Source of the DNA: Alphaproteobacteria bacterium
GTDB lineage: Bacteria; Pseudomonadota; Alphaproteobacteria; Micavibrionales; Micavibrionaceae
NCBI GenBank assembly: GCA_030426925.1
Contig: JAUHXT010000007.1
Location: 1 to 42,603 of the forward strand
DNA length: 42,603 nucleotides
Reading direction: 5' to 3'
Shown here: in pieces, positions 1,266 to 22,154 of the stretch
Numbering within the stretch: position 1 is the first letter of the stretch
Layout of the letters: every line of letters starts with the position of its first letter
Notes under the pieces: generated by a model
Seen by the model: only the letters and a program-made list of their open reading frames with translations
The model's database searches: none
What the model was told of the DNA's origin: nothing
Made by a program: the position numbers and the translations under genes

Positions 1266-3038
1266 TTGAAAAGTTTAAAACCAAGAATCCGACCTGGAAT
1301 CCCGCACCTTGTTGCAGGGAGTGTCATTGCGTCATTTTTGATGCTTCATCCGGTTTCATCTATAGCGCAAAATAACGCCAACCCTATACTTTCCGGTATT
1401 TTTGAGGGTTCGCCGTTTTTGGTGCAGGCGGGTATCAACCCGGCACTTGATAACGGGCGGGTGATGGATGTCCGCTTCGCTGATCCGGACGGTATGCGTG
1501 CCTATTACAGAGAAAACGGTTACGAGCCGATCTGGGTCAAGATGCGTGGCCTTTACACACGCAAAGCCAAGGCCGCGCTGGAAGTGCTGGAAGATGCCTG
1601 GACGCACGGTCTGAACCCCACCCAGTATCATGTTGTGCAAATCCGCGACTTGCTGGAACGCGACAACAAGGATGCCCTGTTTGCTCTTGAGCTGCTGGTC
1701 AGTGACGGTGTGATCCGTTATGTCAGGGACCTTTCGGCCATGCGGGTGGATTCCTCGCTTGTCAGCGCCACGATCCGCCGCAAGCAGACACAGCCTGTTT
1801 CCGAAGACGTTCTGGCCTATGTTGCCGAGACTTCAAGCCCGGACCGTGCTTTATCGGCGTTTGAGCCCAAAGGGAACCTGTATTCCGTATTGCAGACCGA
1901 GCTTGTGGAGCTTGTTAAAAGCGAAGCCGAACCATATGAACCGCTTTTGCCCATCCGTTTGTCCGGGGTTTTACGCCCGGGAGACAGTCATGCGGCGGTC
2001 GGGAAAGTCCGTGAACGGCTAGGTGTTTCAAAGCCGCAGGGGGAAAGTCCCAATTATTATGATGACCAGTTGGCGCAGAAGGTCATTGATTTTCAGCGCC
2101 GCAACGGGCTTGCCGACGATGGCGTTATCGGACCGCGCACGCTGGATGTTTTGAATATCTCCCGCAAGGACAAGATCGAACGCGTTATTGCAAACCTTGA
2201 GCGTTTGCGCTGGGTCGCACGTGAGAAGCCGGAGCGTTATATCCTGGTCAACATCCCGTCGGCGACGTTGTGGGCGATCGACAACGGTCGTTCCGCACTG
2301 GAAATGCCGGTTATCCTGGGCCGCACAAAACGCCAGACAGAGATTTTTATTACCGAGATTGAAGGTATCCGCTTTAACCCGAACTGGACGGTTCCGCCGA
2401 CCATCAAAAAAGAGGACTTCCTGCCGAACCTTGTCGATGATCCGTACTATGCAACCAACCGCGGAATTGAGTTTGTGCAAGGGTATGGAGCCAACACACA
2501 GACTATTGATCCCGGGACGATAGACTGGGCGACAATCGGCTGGGACGAGTTCAAGCAAATCCGCATGGTACAGAATCCGGGGCGTAGCAACCCGCTGGGG
2601 CAAATGCGGGTCTTGATGCCGAATTCGTACAATATCTATCTTCACGACACCAATAAACGCGAGTATTTTCAAAAAGATGACCGCTATATCAGTTCCGGGT
2701 GCATTCGGGTGTCAAAACCGATGCAATTGGCCAATTTTATTATGGACGGCAAACCGGAATGGAGTGAAAGCAAGCTGCAAAATATTCTCGACAGCCAGAG
2801 ACTTACGGAAGTTTTTGTGGACAACAAGTTACCTGTTTTCATCCTGTATCAAACTGTCTGGCTCGGCGATGACCGGAAAATTGTCTACGGCCCCGACGTT
2901 TACGGCAAGGACCGGCAGCTTATCAGTCACATGAAAAACAAAGGATTGTTCTATATTCCGGCTTTTTCAGAAAAAAATGATGAAATTGTTTATAATAATT
3001 CAAAAGAAGGGGTTGCCCGCGTTACGGCAAACCCCTAA
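1266..3038 (+). CDS. Periplasmic L,D-transpeptidase, YcbB/LdtD type
   Basis: Predicted to form 3-3 cross-links in peptidoglycan or attach proteins to it. The 590-residue protein starts at TTG with a basic N-terminus, a hydrophobic stretch and a cleavage-like site near residue 35 (SSIAQ), consistent with Sec export. A YcbB-type scaffold region is followed by a peptidoglycan-binding_1 domain (about 240-295) containing DFQRRNGLADDGVIGPRTL, then a YkuD catalytic domain (about 320-510). The catalytic motif has histidine in YLHDTNKREYF (H460) and cysteine in SSGCIRVSKP (C479), both intact. No in-frame ATG gives an intact signal peptide, so TTG is preferred although the Shine-Dalgarno is weak. The next gene is a DUF882 protein, a common partner in alphaproteobacteria. 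A LdtR-type regulator is encoded about 10 kb away. Confidence 0.9.
   Translation: MKSLKPRIRPGIPHLVAGSVIASFLMLHPVSSIAQNNANPILSGIFEGSPFLVQAGINPALDNGRVMDVRFADPDGMRAYYRENGYEPIWVKMRGLYTRKAKAALEVLEDAWTHGLNPTQYHVVQIRDLLERDNKDALFALELLVSDGVIRYVRDLSAMRVDSSLVSATIRRKQTQPVSEDVLAYVAETSSPDRALSAFEPKGNLYSVLQTELVELVKSEAEPYEPLLPIRLSGVLRPGDSHAAVGKVRERLGVSKPQGESPNYYDDQLAQKVIDFQRRNGLADDGVIGPRTLDVLNISRKDKIERVIANLERLRWVAREKPERYILVNIPSATLWAIDNGRSALEMPVILGRTKRQTEIFITEIEGIRFNPNWTVPPTIKKEDFLPNLVDDPYYATNRGIEFVQGYGANTQTIDPGTIDWATIGWDEFKQIRMVQNPGRSNPLGQMRVLMPNSYNIYLHDTNKREYFQKDDRYISSGCIRVSKPMQLANFIMDGKPEWSESKLQNILDSQRLTEVFVDNKLPVFILYQTVWLGDDRKIVYGPDVYGKDRQLISHMKNKGLFYIPAFSEKNDEIVYNNSKEGVARVTANP
3008..3036 (+). terminator. 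GC-rich hairpin over the transpeptidase stop codon
   Basis: AGGGGTTGCC (3008-3017) can pair with GGCAAACCCCT (3026-3036) with one bulged base; the stem runs up to the stop codon. There is no T tract behind it. A second small inverted repeat follows: TAGTCAG (3048-3054) and CTGACTA (3062-3068) with a 7-nt loop. These may end or attenuate transcription before the DUF882 gene, or serve as an operator. Confidence 0.35.
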
Positions 3039-3160
3039 GATAGTCTCTAGTCAGGGTTTCACTGACTATTAACCTTTAAATGATAAATATAGAAATAGGA
3101 TTTCCATGTCCTGTTCTGTGTTTGCTCTAAAAAAGTATCATTCACTAAAGGCAGTATACG

Positions 3161-3736
3161 ATGAATAATACAGGTGCCAGCCGCCGAGATGTGCTGAAAT
3201 ACGGTTTATATGCCGCCTGCGGATCAATTCTTATGCCGTCATTGACGGGAACTGCCGAGGCAGCGGCCTTTAAAGGGGCCAACATCAAGGACGGCGCGCG
3301 TCGCGTAGCTTTCCGCAACACTCACACAGGGGAGAGCTTTTCCGGCGTTTACCGCGTAGGGAATAAATATCTTCCGGATGCTTTTGACCAGATCAATCAT
3401 GTTTTGCGCGATTTCCGCACCGGTGACGTTTTCCCGATTGATCCGCGTCTCATTGATATCATTTACACCGTTCACGGACTGACGGGCGTAGATCGTCCTT
3501 ACGATGTAATTTCCGGTTACCGCTCACCAAAGACCAACGCCATGCTCCGAAAGGCAAGCACAGGCGTAGCGAAAAAATCACTGCATATGTCAGGCCAGGC
3601 GATCGATGTCCGTATCCCTGGCTTTTCTACTGCCGGTTTACGCGACGTTGCCAAAGGCCTGAAGGCAGGCGGTGTTGGTTATTATTCCAAGAGCGATTTT
3701 GTGCATATGGATACCGGATCCGTCCGTTCCTGGTAA
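3161..3736 (+). CDS. Tat-exported DUF882 / peptidase M15-like protein (YcbK type)
   Basis: 191 residues. The N-terminus has a twin-arginine motif SRRDVLK (7-13), a hydrophobic stretch and AEAAA near 32-36, so export by Tat is likely. The C-terminal domain has the metallopeptidase M15 pattern: H142 and D149 in SLHMSGQAIDV, and H182 in FVHMD, enough for a zinc site. YcbK/DUF882 proteins are believed to act on peptidoglycan peptides, but the exact substrate is not established. An AAAGG lies about 10 nt before the ATG. It follows the L,D-transpeptidase gene on the same strand, so both probably serve cell-wall remodelling. A palindromic repeat element begins 9 bp after the stop codon. Confidence 0.88.
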   Translation: MNNTGASRRDVLKYGLYAACGSILMPSLTGTAEAAAFKGANIKDGARRVAFRNTHTGESFSGVYRVGNKYLPDAFDQINHVLRDFRTGDVFPIDPRLIDIIYTVHGLTGVDRPYDVISGYRSPKTNAMLRKASTGVAKKSLHMSGQAIDVRIPGFSTAGLRDVAKGLKAGGVGYYSKSDFVHMDTGSVRSW

Positions 3737-15871: not shown

Positions 15872-16357
15872 ATGCGTTGCCCGTTTTGTGGAAATGAAGA
15901 CAGCCAGGTGAAGGACTCGCGTCCAACCGATGATTATTCGGCCATCCGCCGCAGGCGTGCTTGTCCGGGATGCGGCGGGCGGTTCACGACGTTTGAACGC
16001 ATACAGCTGCGCGATATTACGGTGTTGAAATCAGGCGCGAAGCGCGAGCCGTTCGAGCGTGAAAAAATCGCGCGGTCGATGCAGATCGCCCTTAGCAAGC
16101 GTCCGGTCGACAGCGACCAGATCGACAAGGCAGTCAGCGGTATCGTGCGCCAGTTGGAAAGCCTGGGCGACCAGGAAATACCGGCGAGCAAAATCGGGTC
16201 ACTGGTCATGAATGCGCTGATCGAACTGGATATCGTCGGGTATATCCGTTACGCCTCTGTTTACAAAGACTTCCGCAAGCCGGAAGATTTCAACGCGTTT
16301 GTCGAAGAACTGAAATCGCTTCACCCCGGTAAGCAGCCCAAGATCGCAGCGGAATAG
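15872..16357 (+). CDS. nrdR: Transcriptional repressor NrdR
   Basis: Zinc-ribbon/ATP-cone repressor of ribonucleotide reductase genes. 161 residues. The zinc ribbon has C3, C6, C31 and C34 (MRCPFCG and [12 protein letters not shown]); the ATP cone covers about 46-136 with [15 protein letters not shown] at its start. No nrd genes or paired NrdR boxes were noticed here. glyA-nrdR-ribD adjacency is widespread in alphaproteobacteria, so position supports the call. ribD starts 38 bp downstream. Confidence 0.96.
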
Positions 16358-16395: not shown

Positions 16396-17499
16396 ATGAC
16401 CCTATGGATGCCGGACGATATCTATTTTATGCGTAACGCGCTGTATCTGGCGCGCACAGGCCTTGCGCGCACAGGCCCGAACCCGTCTGTGGGGTGTGTC
16501 ATCGTCAAAGGTGGGCGCGTTATCGCGCGGGCAAGGACAGCGGATGGCGGACGTCCGCATGCGGAGACGCAGGCGCTGGCCATAGCCGGAGAGCGCGCAG
16601 AAGGTTCCACTATTTATGTGACGTTAGAGCCGTGCAGCCATCACGGACAAACGCCACCCTGTGTGAAGGCCGTGATTGCGGCAAAACCGGCACGCGTGGT
16701 GATTGGCATGAGCGATCCTGATACGCGTGTCAGCGGCCGGGGTATACAGGCGTTGCGGGACGCTGGTATTGAAGTCGTTTGCGGCGTTCTGGAGGACGAA
16801 GTACGCGAGGTTCTGGCCGGATATATCATGTACCGGACCGAAAACCGGCCGTTTGTGACGTTGAAAATTGCGTCAACCATGGACGGAAAGATCGCAACGG
16901 CGAGCGGTGAATCGCAGTGGATTACGGGTGAACTTGCGCGCCGGTACGGTCACCTGGAACGTAGCCGGCACGATATGATTGCCGTTGGCATTGGAACGGT
17001 TCTCGGGGACAATCCGAGGCTCAGCGCACGCATCGAAGGAGTTCAAAACGACCCTGTTCGGCTTGTATTTGATGCGGAATTGCTAATTCCGCAGGATTCT
17101 GAACTTGTTTTGAGTGCGGATCAGACACCAACATGGGTTGTCTGCGGTGACGATGTTGATAGCGAAAAGGCGGAATGGCTATTATCCACATCTGTTGATA
17201 TCCTGAAATACCCCTTGAATGACAAAGGTATCGTAGCGTTATCCACATTGCTTCCGGAGCTGGTGCAGCGTGGCATACAGACAATGATGGTGGAGGGTGG
17301 CAGGTTGTTGATAACCGAGTTCCTGAAAGCCGGAATCTGTGACCGGATTTTATGGTTCCGTGCCCCCTGTATCATAGGAGATACGGGCTTTTCCGGGGTG
17401 GCAGACCTGGAGGTGGAAAGGCTTGTGGATAAGATGGATTTTGTCCACAATGAACGCCGAAAGCTGGGCAACGATATTCTGGACGTTTATACGAGATAA
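16396..17499 (+). CDS. ribD: Bifunctional riboflavin biosynthesis deaminase/reductase
   Basis: Performs two steps: deamination of the diaminopyrimidine intermediate and NADPH reduction of its ribosyl side chain. The N-terminal deaminase has the zinc motif H55-A-E57 and PCSHHGQTPPC with C80 and C89. The C-terminal reductase (about 150-365) has TLKIASTMDGKIATASGESQWI and MMVEGGRLL. 367 residues, normal length. The ATG at 16396 or that at 16408 could be used. The reductase part contains an unusual cluster of DnaA-box-like 9-mers between 17182 and 17449. ribE follows 3 nt after the stop. Confidence 0.95.
   Translation: MTLWMPDDIYFMRNALYLARTGLARTGPNPSVGCVIVKGGRVIARARTADGGRPHAETQALAIAGERAEGSTIYVTLEPCSHHGQTPPCVKAVIAAKPARVVIGMSDPDTRVSGRGIQALRDAGIEVVCGVLEDEVREVLAGYIMYRTENRPFVTLKIASTMDGKIATASGESQWITGELARRYGHLERSRHDMIAVGIGTVLGDNPRLSARIEGVQNDPVRLVFDAELLIPQDSELVLSADQTPTWVVCGDDVDSEKAEWLLSTSVDILKYPLNDKGIVALSTLLPELVQRGIQTMMVEGGRLLITEFLKAGICDRILWFRAPCIIGDTGFSGVADLEVERLVDKMDFVHNERRKLGNDILDVYTR
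17182..17449 (+). other. Cluster of DnaA-box-like 9-mers within ribD
   Basis: TTATCCACA occurs at 17182-17190 and 17239-17247, its reverse complement TGTGGATAA at 17424-17432, and the one-mismatch variant TTGTCCACA at 17441-17449. Other perfect boxes in the window are at 5879-5887 (minus) and 20014-20022 (plus). They lie in coding sequence; DnaA binding is untested. Confidence 0.3.
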
Positions 17500-17502
17500 A
17501 AT

Positions 17503-18093
17503 ATGTTTACAGGCATTATAAAAAACATAGGACGTGTTCAGAGCGTCAAAAAAAATGCGCAAGATTTGCGTGCGGTCATCCAAACGGGCATGGATTTATC
17601 CTGCACGGAGATTGGTGCGTCCATCTGCTGTTCCGGATGCTGTCTGACGGTCGTGGAAAAAGGTGCGGACTGGTTCGCAGTCGATGTATCTGCAGAAACT
17701 TTATCCAAAACCACGCTTGGCGAGTGGGGCGAGGGTGCGGGGGTCAACCTCGAGCCATCGTTAAGGGTGGGGGACGAACTGGGCGGGCATATCGTATCCG
17801 GCCATGTGGACGGGCTGGCGCAGATTGTATCCAAAACGCAGGAGGGCGAGTCATGGCGGCTTACCTTCGCCGTGCCGGACGCATTCAAGCAATACATAGC
17901 GCCCAAAGGGTCCGTTGCGATTGACGGCGTATCCCTGACGGTCAACGAGGTGCAAGGGGCGCAATTCGGGGTCAACATCATTCCACATACGTGGGAGCAT
18001 ACGACCATCGGCAGCCTGCAGGGCGGGCAAAGCGTCAATTTTGAAGTGGATATTCTGGCGCGCTATGTTGCGCGCATGATGCAGAATTCTTGA
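17503..18093 (+). CDS. ribE: Riboflavin synthase, alpha chain
   Basis: Dismutates two 6,7-dimethyl-8-ribityllumazine molecules to riboflavin. 196 residues. It begins with the invariant MFTGII and has two lumazine-binding repeats: the first about 1-90 with GASICCSGCCLTV, the second about 95-190 with GHIVSGHVDG and IDGVSLTVNEV. The C-terminal YVAR is typical. It starts 3 nt after ribD and is followed by the FMN riboswitch that precedes ribH. Some genomes call this gene ribC. Confidence 0.95.
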   Translation: MFTGIIKNIGRVQSVKKNAQDLRAVIQTGMDLSCTEIGASICCSGCCLTVVEKGADWFAVDVSAETLSKTTLGEWGEGAGVNLEPSLRVGDELGGHIVSGHVDGLAQIVSKTQEGESWRLTFAVPDAFKQYIAPKGSVAIDGVSLTVNEVQGAQFGVNIIPHTWEHTTIGSLQGGQSVNFEVDILARYVARMMQNS

Positions 18094-18126
18094 CTTTAGG
18101 GGCGCGAAAGAATATTTCTTACAGCA

Positions 18127-18275
18127 GTTCTCAGGGCAGGGTGAAAGTCCCTACCGGCGGTAAGCATGATTATTCATGCGAGCCCGCGAGCGCCTTAAAA
18201 CCGCAAGTGATTTAAGGGTCAGCAGATCTGGTGCGAAGCCAGAGCCGACGGTTACAGTCCGGATAGGAGAGAATG
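18127..18275 (+). promoter_or_regulatory. FMN riboswitch (RFN element)
   Basis: All conserved parts of the RFN aptamer are recognisable: TTCTCAGGGCAGGGTGAAA at the 5' side, CCTACCGGCGGTAA, GAGCCCGCGAGCGCC, GTCAGCAGATCTGGTG, CCAGAGCCGACGG and GTCCGGATAGGAGAGAAT at the 3' side. It lies between ribE and ribH inside the riboflavin operon. Downstream bases can form two exclusive structures. CTTGCCCTGA (18301-18310) pairs with the aptamer's own TCAGGGCAGG (18131-18140). GATTCTGGC (18309-18317) pairs with 18340-18349, masking the ribH start codon and enclosing its Shine-Dalgarno. No U-run terminator is seen, so control is probably translational. Confidence 0.95.
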
Positions 18276-18342
18276 TCAGGCGCTCTTTGCGAGTGTCTGT
18301 CTTGCCCTGATTCTGGCACTATAAAGAGAAAGGATCATGGCC

Positions 18343-18831
18343 ATGAATCAGATTAAACTACAGACACCTTCCAATAAAAAAATCGCCTATATTCAGGCAG
18401 GATGGCACAAGGACATTGTCGAGCAGGCTTATTTCGGGTTTCGCGAGCGTGTCGGCGAAGCCGGGATCAGGGAAAACCAGATCAGCGTGTTCGATGTTCC
18501 GGGCAGCCTGGAAATTCCGCTGCAGGCGAAGTTGTTGGCCAAGACAACACAGTTTGACCTGATCGTTGCCTGCGGGCTTGTTGTTGATGGCGGAATTTAC
18601 CGGCATGATTTTGTTGCCTCCGCCGTTATTGACGGGATGATGGATGTGCAGCTGGAAACGGAAATCCCGATCCTGTCTGTCGTGCTGACACCCCTGCGTT
18701 TCCATGACAATGAGGAGCATCATAAGTTCTTTTTCGACCATTTCAGTGTCAAGGGACGTGAGGCGGGAGATGCCTGTATCCAGACACTGGCGAATTTAGA
18801 GTCTTTACAAGGGCTCAAAGAGGTGGCTTAA
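18343..18831 (+). CDS. ribH: Lumazine synthase, type II (RibH2)
   Basis: Makes 6,7-dimethyl-8-ribityllumazine from the ribityl-pyrimidine and butanone phosphate. 162 residues. It resembles Brucella/Mesorhizobium RibH2 rather than the icosahedral RibH1: FDVPGSLEIPLQAKLLAKT, GLVVDGGIYRHDFVA, VQLETEIPILSVVLTP and FHDNEEHHKFFFDHF match that type. The ATG at 18343 is preferred over 18337 because AAGGA (about 18330-18334) is 8 nt away rather than 2. It is directly downstream of the FMN riboswitch and 9 nt before nusB. Confidence 0.92.
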   Translation: MNQIKLQTPSNKKIAYIQAGWHKDIVEQAYFGFRERVGEAGIRENQISVFDVPGSLEIPLQAKLLAKTTQFDLIVACGLVVDGGIYRHDFVASAVIDGMMDVQLETEIPILSVVLTPLRFHDNEEHHKFFFDHFSVKGREAGDACIQTLANLESLQGLKEVA

Positions 18832-18840
18832 AGAGCCGTC

Positions 18841-19302
18841 ATGGCAAAAACACCTGATCATAAAACACAAAAACGTGCTGCGCGGCTTATGGCCGTGCAG
18901 GGCGTTTACGCGATGCTGACGGACAACAAGAGTGCGGAAGAGCTGATTCCTGCTTATCTTGCTCATTATACCGGCATGGCGATTGATGAAGATGTTCTGG
19001 CCCAGCCGGACCAGGACGAGTTCCGGATTATTATTGAAGGCGTTGAAGAGCATAAGGAAGCGCTGGAAAACGAGATTCAAGCGGCTTTGGGCGAACGGCA
19101 AACGCCTGTTTCGGCTTCACGTGAACCGTTATTGTTTGCTATCCTTCTGTGTGGGGTTTTCGAGATTAAAAACCGCTATGATATTGATATTCCTATCATA
19201 ATTTCCGACTATCTGCATGTCTGTCATGCGTTTTTCGATGGTAACGAGCCGAAGTTGGTCAATGCCGCGTTGGATAAGGTCGGCAAATCAGTCCAAAGCT
19301 GA
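18841..19302 (+). CDS. nusB: Transcription antitermination factor NusB
   Basis: RNA-binding partner of NusE (S10) in rRNA antitermination complexes. 153 residues, all helical by composition. The N-terminus KRAARLMAVQGVYAML matches the family's arginine-rich first helix, and EPLLFAILLCGVFEIKNR with IIISDYLHVCHAFF matches the second half. The ribH-nusB pairing is nearly universal in proteobacteria, supporting the call. It follows ribH by 9 nt and ends the riboflavin operon. Confidence 0.92.
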   Translation: MAKTPDHKTQKRAARLMAVQGVYAMLTDNKSAEELIPAYLAHYTGMAIDEDVLAQPDQDEFRIIIEGVEEHKEALENEIQAALGERQTPVSASREPLLFAILLCGVFEIKNRYDIDIPIIISDYLHVCHAFFDGNEPKLVNAALDKVGKSVQS

Positions 19303-20103: not shown

Positions 20104-22154
20104 ATGGAACAATTTTTCTACGTGATTGGCGCTTGTGCCATTCTCGCGCTGATTGCCAGCCAGCTATGGGCACGGCAAGTTTTGTCAGCGGGTACAGGCA
20201 ATGAAAAGATGCAGGCGATTGCGGGTGCTATCCAGGAAGGGGCTTCGGCCTATCTGAACCGTCAGTACCGTACAATCGGTATTGTCGGGGTTGTGGCTGC
20301 GGCCATATTGTTTTTCCTGCTGGGCGGGCACGTTGCCGCAGGCTTTATAGTCGGTTCTGTCTTATCGGGCCTGACCGGGTATATCGGCATGAATGTTTCG
20401 GTTCGTGCCAATGTGCGGACCACGCAAGCCGCAACGCAGGGTCTTGAACCGGCATTGAACGTCGCATTCAAGTCCGGTGCGATTACAGGTATGCTGGTTG
20501 TCGGCCTTGGCCTGCTTGGTGTCGCCGGTTATTACTACATCATGGATATCCATCTCGGGTATGACGCACGGACGAGCCTTGAGGGTCTTGTCGGCCTCGG
20601 CTTTGGTGCTTCCCTGATTTCCATTTTCGCCCGTTTGGGCGGCGGTATCTTTACCAAGGGCGCGGACGTTGGTGCTGACCTTGTTGGTAAAGTAGAAGCC
20701 GGTATCCCGGAAGATGACCCGCGCAACCCGGCCGTTATCGCCGATAACGTTGGGGACAATGTTGGTGACTGCGCCGGTATGGCTGCCGACCTGTTCGAAA
20801 CATATGCGGTGACGATCGTTGCGACGATGCTGATTGCCTATAGTGTTTTTGATGCACCATTGAGCGGCATGATGATGATGGTTCCATTAATGATAGGCGG
20901 GCTTTGCATTATCGGGTCTATTGCCGGTGCGATTTTTGTCCGTCTTGAAAAAGGGCAGGGCATTATGCGCGCGCTGTATCGCGGGTTTATCGCCAGTGCG
21001 ATTTTCTCGATGATCCTGATCCTCGCGTTTTTGGCGAATATCGGCATCGACACAGCTTTGCCGACCAAAAGCGGCATGATTATCAGCGGTGTTGATTTGA
21101 TCCTTTGTACCTTTATCGGACTGGTCCTGACCGGCCTGATCGTATGGGTGACAGAGTATTACACCAGCACATCGTACCGTCCGGTGCGCAGCGTGGCAAA
21201 ATCATCAGAAACCGGTCATGGCACGAACGTGATCCAGGGGCTGGCGATTTCAATGGAAGCGACAGCTATCCCGGTTTGTTCTGTATTGCGATTGCCGCGA
21301 CCAGCATGCTGTCCATGGCTGGAATGGTTGTGGCGCTGGATGCATACGGCCCGGTAACGGACAATGCAGGCGGTATTGCCGAAATGTCCGAACTGCCGGA
21401 GAATGTGCGTAATACGACAGACGAGCTGGATGCGGTGGGTAACACCACGAAAGCCGTGACAAAGGGATACGCGATCGGTTCTGCCGGTCTGGCCGCCCTT
21501 GTGCTGTTTGCTGCCTATACCGAAGAGATCGCACACTACCTGCCGCAGCTGGGCGAGATTGATTTCTCCCTTCAGAACCCGTTCGTTGTGATCGGCCTGT
21601 TCATCGGCGGTATGTTGCCGTACCTGTTCGGTGCATTGTCCATGACAGCGGTTGGACGTGCAGCGTCGAGCGTTGTGGTGGAAGTGCGCCGCCAGTTTGC
21701 GGAAATACCGGGTATTATGGAAGGTACAGCGAAGCCGGAATACGGCCGCGCGGTTGACCTTCTGACCAAGTCTGCGATCCGTGAAATGATTGTTCCTTCG
21801 CTGTTGCCTGTTCTGGCTCCGGTTATCGTGTTTGCCGTGGTTGCCTGGATTGCCGGCCTTGTGGCTGCGTTGCAGACGCTGGGCGCCTTGCTGATGGGCA
21901 CGATTGTCACAGGTATCTTTGTCGCGCTGTCGATGACAGCGGGTGGCGGTGCATGGGACAACGCGAAGAAGTTCATTGAAGAAGGCAATCACGGCGGTAA
22001 AGGTTCTGAAGCTCACAAGGCCGCGGTTACCGGTGATACTGTCGGTGACCCCTACAAGGACACTGCCGGTCCGGCCGTTAACCCGCTTATCAAGATTGCC
22101 AACATCGTTGCCATTTTGCTGGTCGCGATTGTTGCGAAGCTTATTGCCGGCTAG
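20104..22154 (+). pseudogene. hppA: K+-independent proton-translocating pyrophosphatase, frameshifted
   Basis: Membrane pyrophosphatase that pumps protons using PPi. Two overlapping frames encode the halves. The first runs from ATG 20104 (good AAGGGAA Shine-Dalgarno) to about 21273. It has the catalytic region DVGADLVGK (from about residue 188) and DNVGDNVGD. The second picks up in another frame at about 21273 with [13 protein letters not shown] and ends at 22154. At the junction the family normally has about 15 more residues between EATAIP and GLF. The simplest explanation is a deletion of about 43-46 bp (3n+1), not a single-base slip. GNTTKA (Lys codon 21450-21452) marks the K+-independent type. 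Both halves are otherwise well conserved, suggesting a recent lesion or an assembly error. Confidence 0.88.

Follow-up and report, generated by a model that had tools for sequence, protein, structure and literature searches.

The ribH gene of the window, i.e. of the whole stretch of 42,603 nt analyzed here, is very probably controlled by a translational FMN riboswitch (an OFF switch) that acts from inside the ribD-ribE-ribH-nusB gene run. The leader can form two mutually exclusive helices, an anti-aptamer and a sequestor of the start codon, and the sequestor takes its 3′ arm from codons 1-3 of the gene. The comparison with other leaders makes it probable that such a riboswitch writes part of the protein, i.e. 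that it is a portable module including the first codons, and that Met-Asn-Gln on unrelated proteins marks present or past control.

The riboflavin gene run and its riboswitch

The riboflavin gene run on the + strand is a ribD-ribE-[RFN]-ribH-nusB operon. The features of the run and of the riboswitch are the following:

15872-16357, + strand: nrdR, which opens the listed riboflavin gene run
16396-17499, + strand: ribD, upstream of the riboswitch (TIGR00326, 334.8 bits)
17503-18093, + strand: ribE, riboflavin synthase (NF006767, 250.3 bits)
18123-18278, + strand: FMN (RFN) riboswitch aptamer (Rfam RF00050, 109.5 bits, gathering cut-off 66.2, model 1-138 complete)
18131-18142, + strand: aptamer strand bound by the anti-aptamer, i.e. 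the last part of P1 on its 3′ side plus the nucleotides that follow (12 contiguous pairs with 18299-18310)
18299-18310, + strand: anti-aptamer (anti-sequestor), i.e. the previously proposed 18301-18310 plus two wobble pairs
18307-18317, + strand: 5′ arm of the sequestor (MFE fold, duplex)
18330-18334, + strand: AAGGA, a Shine-Dalgarno-like motif within the loop of the sequestor, 8 nt ahead of ATG 18343
18340-18351, + strand: 3′ arm of the sequestor, i.e. GCC, the start codon and codons 2-3, AAT CAG (MFE fold, duplex)
18343-18831, + strand: ribH, lumazine synthase (NF009084, 226.5 bits, cut-off 160); the frame is also open from ATG 18337
18841-19302, + strand: nusB-like gene, named by its position and a TIGR01951 match of 71 bits (E 1.1e-19), under the cut-off of 88.35

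The gap between the end of ribE and the aptamer is 29 nt, so that the riboswitch lies inside the gene run; the genome (2.14 Mb) has no second RF00050 match. The ribH gene is likewise the sole match to PF00885 (lumazine synthase) in the whole genome. Its product reaches 72.8 bits with the general model TIGR00114, under the cut-off of 84.6, and we take the model that it does match, NF009084, to be that of type II lumazine synthases. The nusB-like gene starts 9 nt past ribH and may also be affected by the switch. A simple sigma-70 scan detected no promoter-like site ahead of the aptamer. No intrinsic-terminator-like site, as sought in a transcription-terminating FMN riboswitch, was found on the + strand between 17900 and 18420. 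Farther downstream, an H+ pyrophosphatase gene is split over two overlapping frames of the window (20104-22154), i.e. 20104-21357 (profile 1-366) and 21105-22154 (profile 375-645), which is a frameshift or an assembly error.

A reading of the sequence alone had proposed that CTTGCCCTGA (18301-18310) pairs with TCAGGGCAGG of the aptamer (18131-18140) in 10 pairs with one G-U, and direct inspection of the letters agrees with it. The run even reaches 12 pairs, three of which are wobbles (18299-18310 with 18131-18142). The sequestor that this sequence-only reading had placed between GATTCTGGC (18309-18317) and 18340-18349 is also present, but the stem is longer: in the MFE fold of 18277-18380 it comprises 11 bp (18307-18317 with 18340-18351, U18344 bulged), the additional pairs being C18307-G18351 and U18308-A18350. 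This fold has a stability z of -2.58, and 4 of 200 shuffles were equally stable. Both the sequence and the MFE fold bear out that the ribH ATG (18343) is within the stem and AAGGA within the loop. The in-frame ATG 18337 sits just 2 nt from AAGGA and is a poorer start than ATG 18343. The two helices do have bases in common, as proposed, but four (18307-18310) rather than two. When one helix was enforced in computed folds, the probability of the other was ≤0.04 at ends 18351-18380.

These sequence features fit the known class of translational OFF riboswitches, of which the window would be another case, its response to the ligand being a prediction. Sequestor/anti-sequestor attenuation of translation in FMN riboswitches is described in general terms in PMC2258182, and the window shares with this general type two mutually exclusive helices and the OFF logic, whereas its stem extends over the start codon and codons 2-3, AAGGA being in the loop and not in the stem. 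The closest counterpart described here is E. coli ribB, which has the same class of aptamer, an anti-aptamer (TGCCCTGA) and a sequestor (CTGATTCTGG with CCATGAATCAG) that spans the start codon together with codons 2-3; the platform after its aptamer, TGCCCTGATTCTGG...CCATGAATCAG, is almost that of the window. The two systems differ in the controlled gene (RibB versus RibH), in the distance from aptamer to start (103 nt in E. coli ribB versus 64 nt in the window), and in their surroundings, E. coli ribB being outside a rib gene run in its record and the window's gene inside one. A 2002 study of RFN elements is reportedly the specific source on sequestor/anti-sequestor attenuation in FMN riboswitches. 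As in the window, an FMN riboswitch is found directly ahead of the type II lumazine synthase gene ribH2 of Brucella and rhizobia; according to PMC2828483, however, ribH2 is an isolated second gene beside the ribH1 of the rib operon, whereas the window's ribH is the only one and belongs to the rib run. According to PMC3766115, most Proteobacteria have as a rule just one ribB or ribH2 under FMN control, and the FMN riboswitch class is a drug target, for ribocil (PMC9689429).

Recurrence of the two helices in homologous leaders

The chance levels of the helices were estimated by shuffling the window sequence. The energy of the anti-aptamer duplex was matched in 41 of 2000 shuffles and its contiguous run in 123 of 5000, while the sequestor energy was matched in 49 of 2000 shuffles with a fixed arm and in 129 of 2000 with the arm anywhere in the spacer. 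Taken singly, each helix is thus weakly above chance (about 2-6%), and single-sequence statistics were dropped as proof because these levels are too weak.

For comparison, 133 FMN-riboswitch leaders (window included) were collected in two sets. Set 1 (89 leaders) consists of 13 over-cut-off matches in 95 relatives (window included), 75 in 249 genomes of the phylum, and E. coli ribB; it leaves out the decayed leader L015. Set 2 adds 44 leaders found in 289 genomes of the class, L268 (below the cut-off) as well as L237 and L253 (no recognised gene) having been dropped beforehand. Starts were chosen automatically in set 1, with a bonus for ATGAATCAG, ATGAGTCAG, and ATGCGTCAG, apart from ten that were set by hand (L005, L013, L014, L024, L025, L038, L073, L045, L049, and L050); the start of L015, which is outside the counts, was also set by hand. 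The motif bonus was unused in set 2, where L254 was set by hand.

In a per-leader energy test of set 1, p≤0.05 was reached by 20 of the 89 anti-aptamers and 18 of the 89 sequestors, with about 4.5 expected in each case. Because the single-sequence and the per-leader energy tests are weak or modest, the comparison between leaders has to decide. After the modest result of the energy test, a contiguous-run test was devised with a narrower target, i.e. the last 75 nt ahead of the start. The complement of the aptamer strand reached p≤0.05 in 70 of the 133 leaders, versus 6.7 expected, the leaders being related to one another.

The earlier reading had named conservation in relatives as a check, and both helices are indeed found again, with compensatory changes, in homologous leaders, though they are absent from some leaders. 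Covariation was assessed in 59 of the 89 leaders of set 1, selected by rule (overlap, an energy of at most -10, and pairing inside codons 1-3). With the A of AUG as position 0, the pairs at codon-2 position +4 are U-A (41), G-C (11), U-G (3), and G-U (2), and those at position +5 are A-U (42), U-A (8), G-U (5), and G-C (2).

The case for the sequestor is carried by swap and permutation tests. For the swaps, arms were anchored on the anti-aptamer and not chosen by their own pairing; a first control, in which arms had been picked by their own pairing and hence were biased to their own start, was dropped. For all 89 leaders of set 1, the mean energies with own and with other starts are -11.3 and -6.2 kcal/mol, respectively, and 1461 of 5970 swaps are as good as the own combination. 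The values are -14.5 versus -6.4 kcal/mol (84 of 1978 swaps) for the 43 leaders of set 1 whose genes begin with Asn-Gln after the start (NQ leaders). A group with a different sequence, i.e. family f19 and three similar loci (n=11), yielded -14.7 versus -8.0 kcal/mol (81 of 962 swaps); an example is L060 with arm TGGGTGACGTGTC and start ATGACACACACCC. Judging from sequence and gene order, the class of the window's organism is Alphaproteobacteria, and family f19 is presumably Rhodobacteraceae and family f38 Burkholderiaceae. In set 2, the values are -11.7 versus -7.2 kcal/mol for all 44 leaders (390 of 1546 swaps as good) and -14.8 versus -7.1 kcal/mol for the 20 NQ leaders (44 of 518). When 46 representatives were permuted, the observed mean was reached in 0 of 5000 permutations.

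Other results speak against the sequestor. The signal is modest for the 35 non-NQ leaders of set 1 that are not RibE leaders (-9.4 versus -6.4, 933 of 3066 swaps as good), little for the 24 non-NQ leaders of set 2 (-9.0 versus -7.2, 346 of 1028), and absent at the start codon of the 11 RibE leaders of set 1 (-4.90 versus -4.85, 444 of 926). A strong start-codon sequestor (E ≤ -10) is present in 6 of the 11 leaders of the window's own family that are over the Rfam cut-off (L001, L004, L006, L007, L011, and L012), and the other five (L005, L009, L010, L013, and L014) have none of this strength. The arms of anti-aptamer and sequestor overlap in 80 of the 89 leaders; this count lacks independence, since the window for the arm was set to start within the anti-aptamer.

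A pattern scan for CCTGATTN{12,42}ATGAATCAG was also run on 397 genomes (91 match; 2 with the reversed control). Its count was set aside because many matches, inspected by eye, resemble conserved coding sequence far from riboswitches.

Seven of the RibE leaders (L056, L059, L068, L069, L070, L075, and L077) have, by eye, a hairpin CCTGTTTT...AAAACAGG into GAG instead, which precedes a short open frame overlapping the ribE start. Of 13 ribE leaders with a riboswitch, 11 have such a short frame whose end coincides with or overlaps the ribE start, i.e. these seven and L090, L091, L230, and L231, the frame beginning with MDQ in the last two; by the rule used, L057 and L072 have none. The position of the frame suggests coupling via a leader peptide. 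Two further genomes, G235 and G247 (L086 and L058), each have a pair of FMN riboswitches, of which one precedes ribH and the other a gene beginning with MAGTFFIM; neither genome has a RibB match.

Met-Asn-Gln at the start of riboswitch-led genes

The aptamer holds the conserved UCAGGG, and the variants UCGGGG and UUCAGGG are present in compared leaders. An aptamer with UCAGGG requires a CCCUGA-like anti-aptamer, and a sequestor that uses the same strand therefore needs UCAG near the start. Of the 133 riboswitch-led genes, 63 begin with Asn-Gln directly after the start, i.e. 43 of the 89 in set 1 and 20 of the 44 in set 2 (one with a GTG start). They encode RibH (38), RibB (21), RibN-like transporters (2, of which that of L039 belongs to the EamA family), and HAD-like proteins (2).

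Common descent, or selection at the protein level (e.g. for N-terminal processing) with the RNA pairing following from it, could also account for the tripeptide. The leaders are related and the counts are uncorrected for kinship; moreover, E. coli and the window have near-identical platforms, and spread of the leader together with the first codons by descent or transfer is likely. On the other hand, the tripeptide occurs on proteins as unrelated as RibH, RibB, an EamA transporter, and HAD-like proteins, and the codons are AAT CAG in 63 of 63 cases, although the rest of the same genes in set 1 uses the alternatives freely (AAT:AAC 88:152, CAG:CAA 142:176). The respective values for set 2 are 25:38 and 101:21, so that there the choice of CAG alone tells little. 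RibH proteins of the window's type also argue against this alternative: Asn-Gln follows the start in 0 of the 7 encoded without an adjacent riboswitch, which begin with MTK, MKK, MTL, MSN, MPL, MNT, and MQP, versus 38 of the 65 with one (Fisher p 0.0037, kinship uncorrected). The same holds for a decayed FMN riboswitch in genome G058 (L015, about 1498-1570, minus strand, 26.2 bits), a congener of G034 with an intact riboswitch. Its platform is gone, short remnants of its 5′ and 3′ parts directly adjoin a ribosome-binding site and ATGAACCAG of ribH, and the codons are AAC CAG. We therefore regard descent or protein-level selection as an unlikely source of the trace, and selection on the RNA as the probable one.

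If true, the Met-Asn-Gln trace would be a marker of start-codon sequestration that can be read from sequence alone, and it would offer a straightforward way to tell selection on the RNA from selection on the protein. A search of the open-licence literature, which covered mostly titles and abstract openings and did not query the string MNQ, returned no description of it. The 2002 RFN study by Vitreschak is said to be the likeliest place for one.

Two of the riboswitches that lead genes starting with MNQ are L269 (G073, 2642-3418, minus strand) in the order RFN-gene-ribE-ribH-nusB and L270 (G082, 2485-3237, minus strand) in the order RFN-gene-nusB, the neighbours being named by eye. Both genomes are of the same taxonomic order. 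The products share 29% identity; a HAD_2 match under the threshold was obtained for one and no Pfam match for the other, and the first product has no PDB match. The gene may possibly encode the pathway's phosphatase. Genome G212 (1.1 Mb), which has no RF00050 match, encodes a RibB (L187) with 72% identity to that of E. coli; it begins with ATG AAA AAT CAG (MKNQ), which may be left over from the platform.

Mode of control and the riboflavin pathway of relatives

Growing transcripts were folded computationally at stepwise 3′ ends, in a model that has no ligand term and excludes tertiary contacts. The mean pair probability of the anti-aptamer (18301-18310) is 0.90, 0.92, 0.72, 0.51, and 0.65 at ends 18310, 18320, 18335, 18345, and 18351, respectively, and at end 18380 the computed values are 0.01 for the anti-aptamer and 0.96 for the sequestor. 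With P1 and P2 constrained, the sequestor rises from 0.51 (18351) via 0.83 (18360) to 0.95 (18380). When the anti-aptamer was enforced at 18380, the AUG was unpaired with a probability of 0.61 and the SD motif with 0.40. The probability of P1 was <0.2 in every unconstrained fold, so that folding, with ligand and tertiary contacts outside the model, is silent on how well FMN holds the aptamer.

Folding with and without the aptamer constraint had been suggested along with the original pairings. The helices do compete, yet the full-length ensemble favours the sequestor either way, and an equilibrium between two states was therefore not accepted as a model by itself. As the complete RNA favours the sequestor in either case, the decision would fall during transcription, which suggests a kinetic rather than an equilibrium switch. 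Such a reading fits E. coli ribB, for which PMC5234074 reports a pause near the start that holds back the competing sequence and is prolonged by FMN.

In the proposed mechanism, the strand 18299-18310 would emerge once the aptamer is transcribed. If FMN has locked the aptamer, the strand would stay free and 18307-18317 would pair with 18340-18351, so that the start codon and codons 2-3 would be buried and ribH repressed. Without FMN, 18299-18310 would pair with 18131-18142 and break P1, and the start would be open long enough for ribosome loading. Thus, FMN would have to bind before 18299-18310 appears, and ribosomes would have to load before the 3′ arm closes. This is the logic of the original proposal (sequestor with FMN, anti-aptamer without), which is supported by the helices and agrees with E. 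coli ribB as presented in PMC5234074; the binding of FMN by the window's RNA and the direction of control are predictions.

Control could instead be mainly transcriptional, the repressed RNA being exposed to Rho and the hiding of the start being secondary, a reading that is compatible with translational control. E. coli ribB is subject to Rho-dependent termination besides control of translation, with FMN-lengthened pausing near the start (PMC5234074), and the lack of an intrinsic-terminator-like site around the riboswitch points in the same direction. However, the element that recurs and covaries is a start-codon stem reaching down to codons 2-3, which Rho alone would not select. A mainly transcriptional switch is thus improbable. 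Far less probable still is that the pairings are incidental or always formed, with the sequestor as a constitutive brake that the aptamer does not govern: the single-sequence tests are weak, the sequestor dominates the full-length ensemble irrespective of the aptamer, and several leaders lack a start-codon sequestor, but the anti-aptamer complement recurs far above expectation, own arms beat swapped arms, and the platform was also lost in the one clear decayed riboswitch (G058). We thus retain a translational OFF switch, probably set during transcription, as the best explanation.

The relatives also differ in their RibB and RibA matches. A RibH match (E≤0.001) is present in 63 of the 95 relatives, and 14 genomes, including that of the window (G000), contain the window's type of RibH (E<1e-25). 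RibB (PF00926) has no match in any of these 14 sampled genomes, whereas it is matched in 46 of the 49 other RibH genomes (exceptions G018, G039, and G069; Fisher p 2e-11, kinship uncorrected). For RibA (PF00925), counted by hand, no match was found in 13 of the 14 genomes (exception G017) versus 10 of the 49 others. According to PMC9478397, riboflavin synthesis in Sinorhizobium meliloti can dispense with RibBA and is served by a formamidase (BrbF), and the GTP cyclohydrolase III and the alternative RibB that go with it have still to be found. The RibB-less genomes may depend on such an undiscovered alternative to RibBA, and they could help to find the enzymes that this source calls undiscovered. 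The genome of the window is 99.84% complete, the other genomes with its type of RibH range from 79 to 100%, and the window retains ribD, ribE, and ribH despite the lack of RibB and RibA matches.
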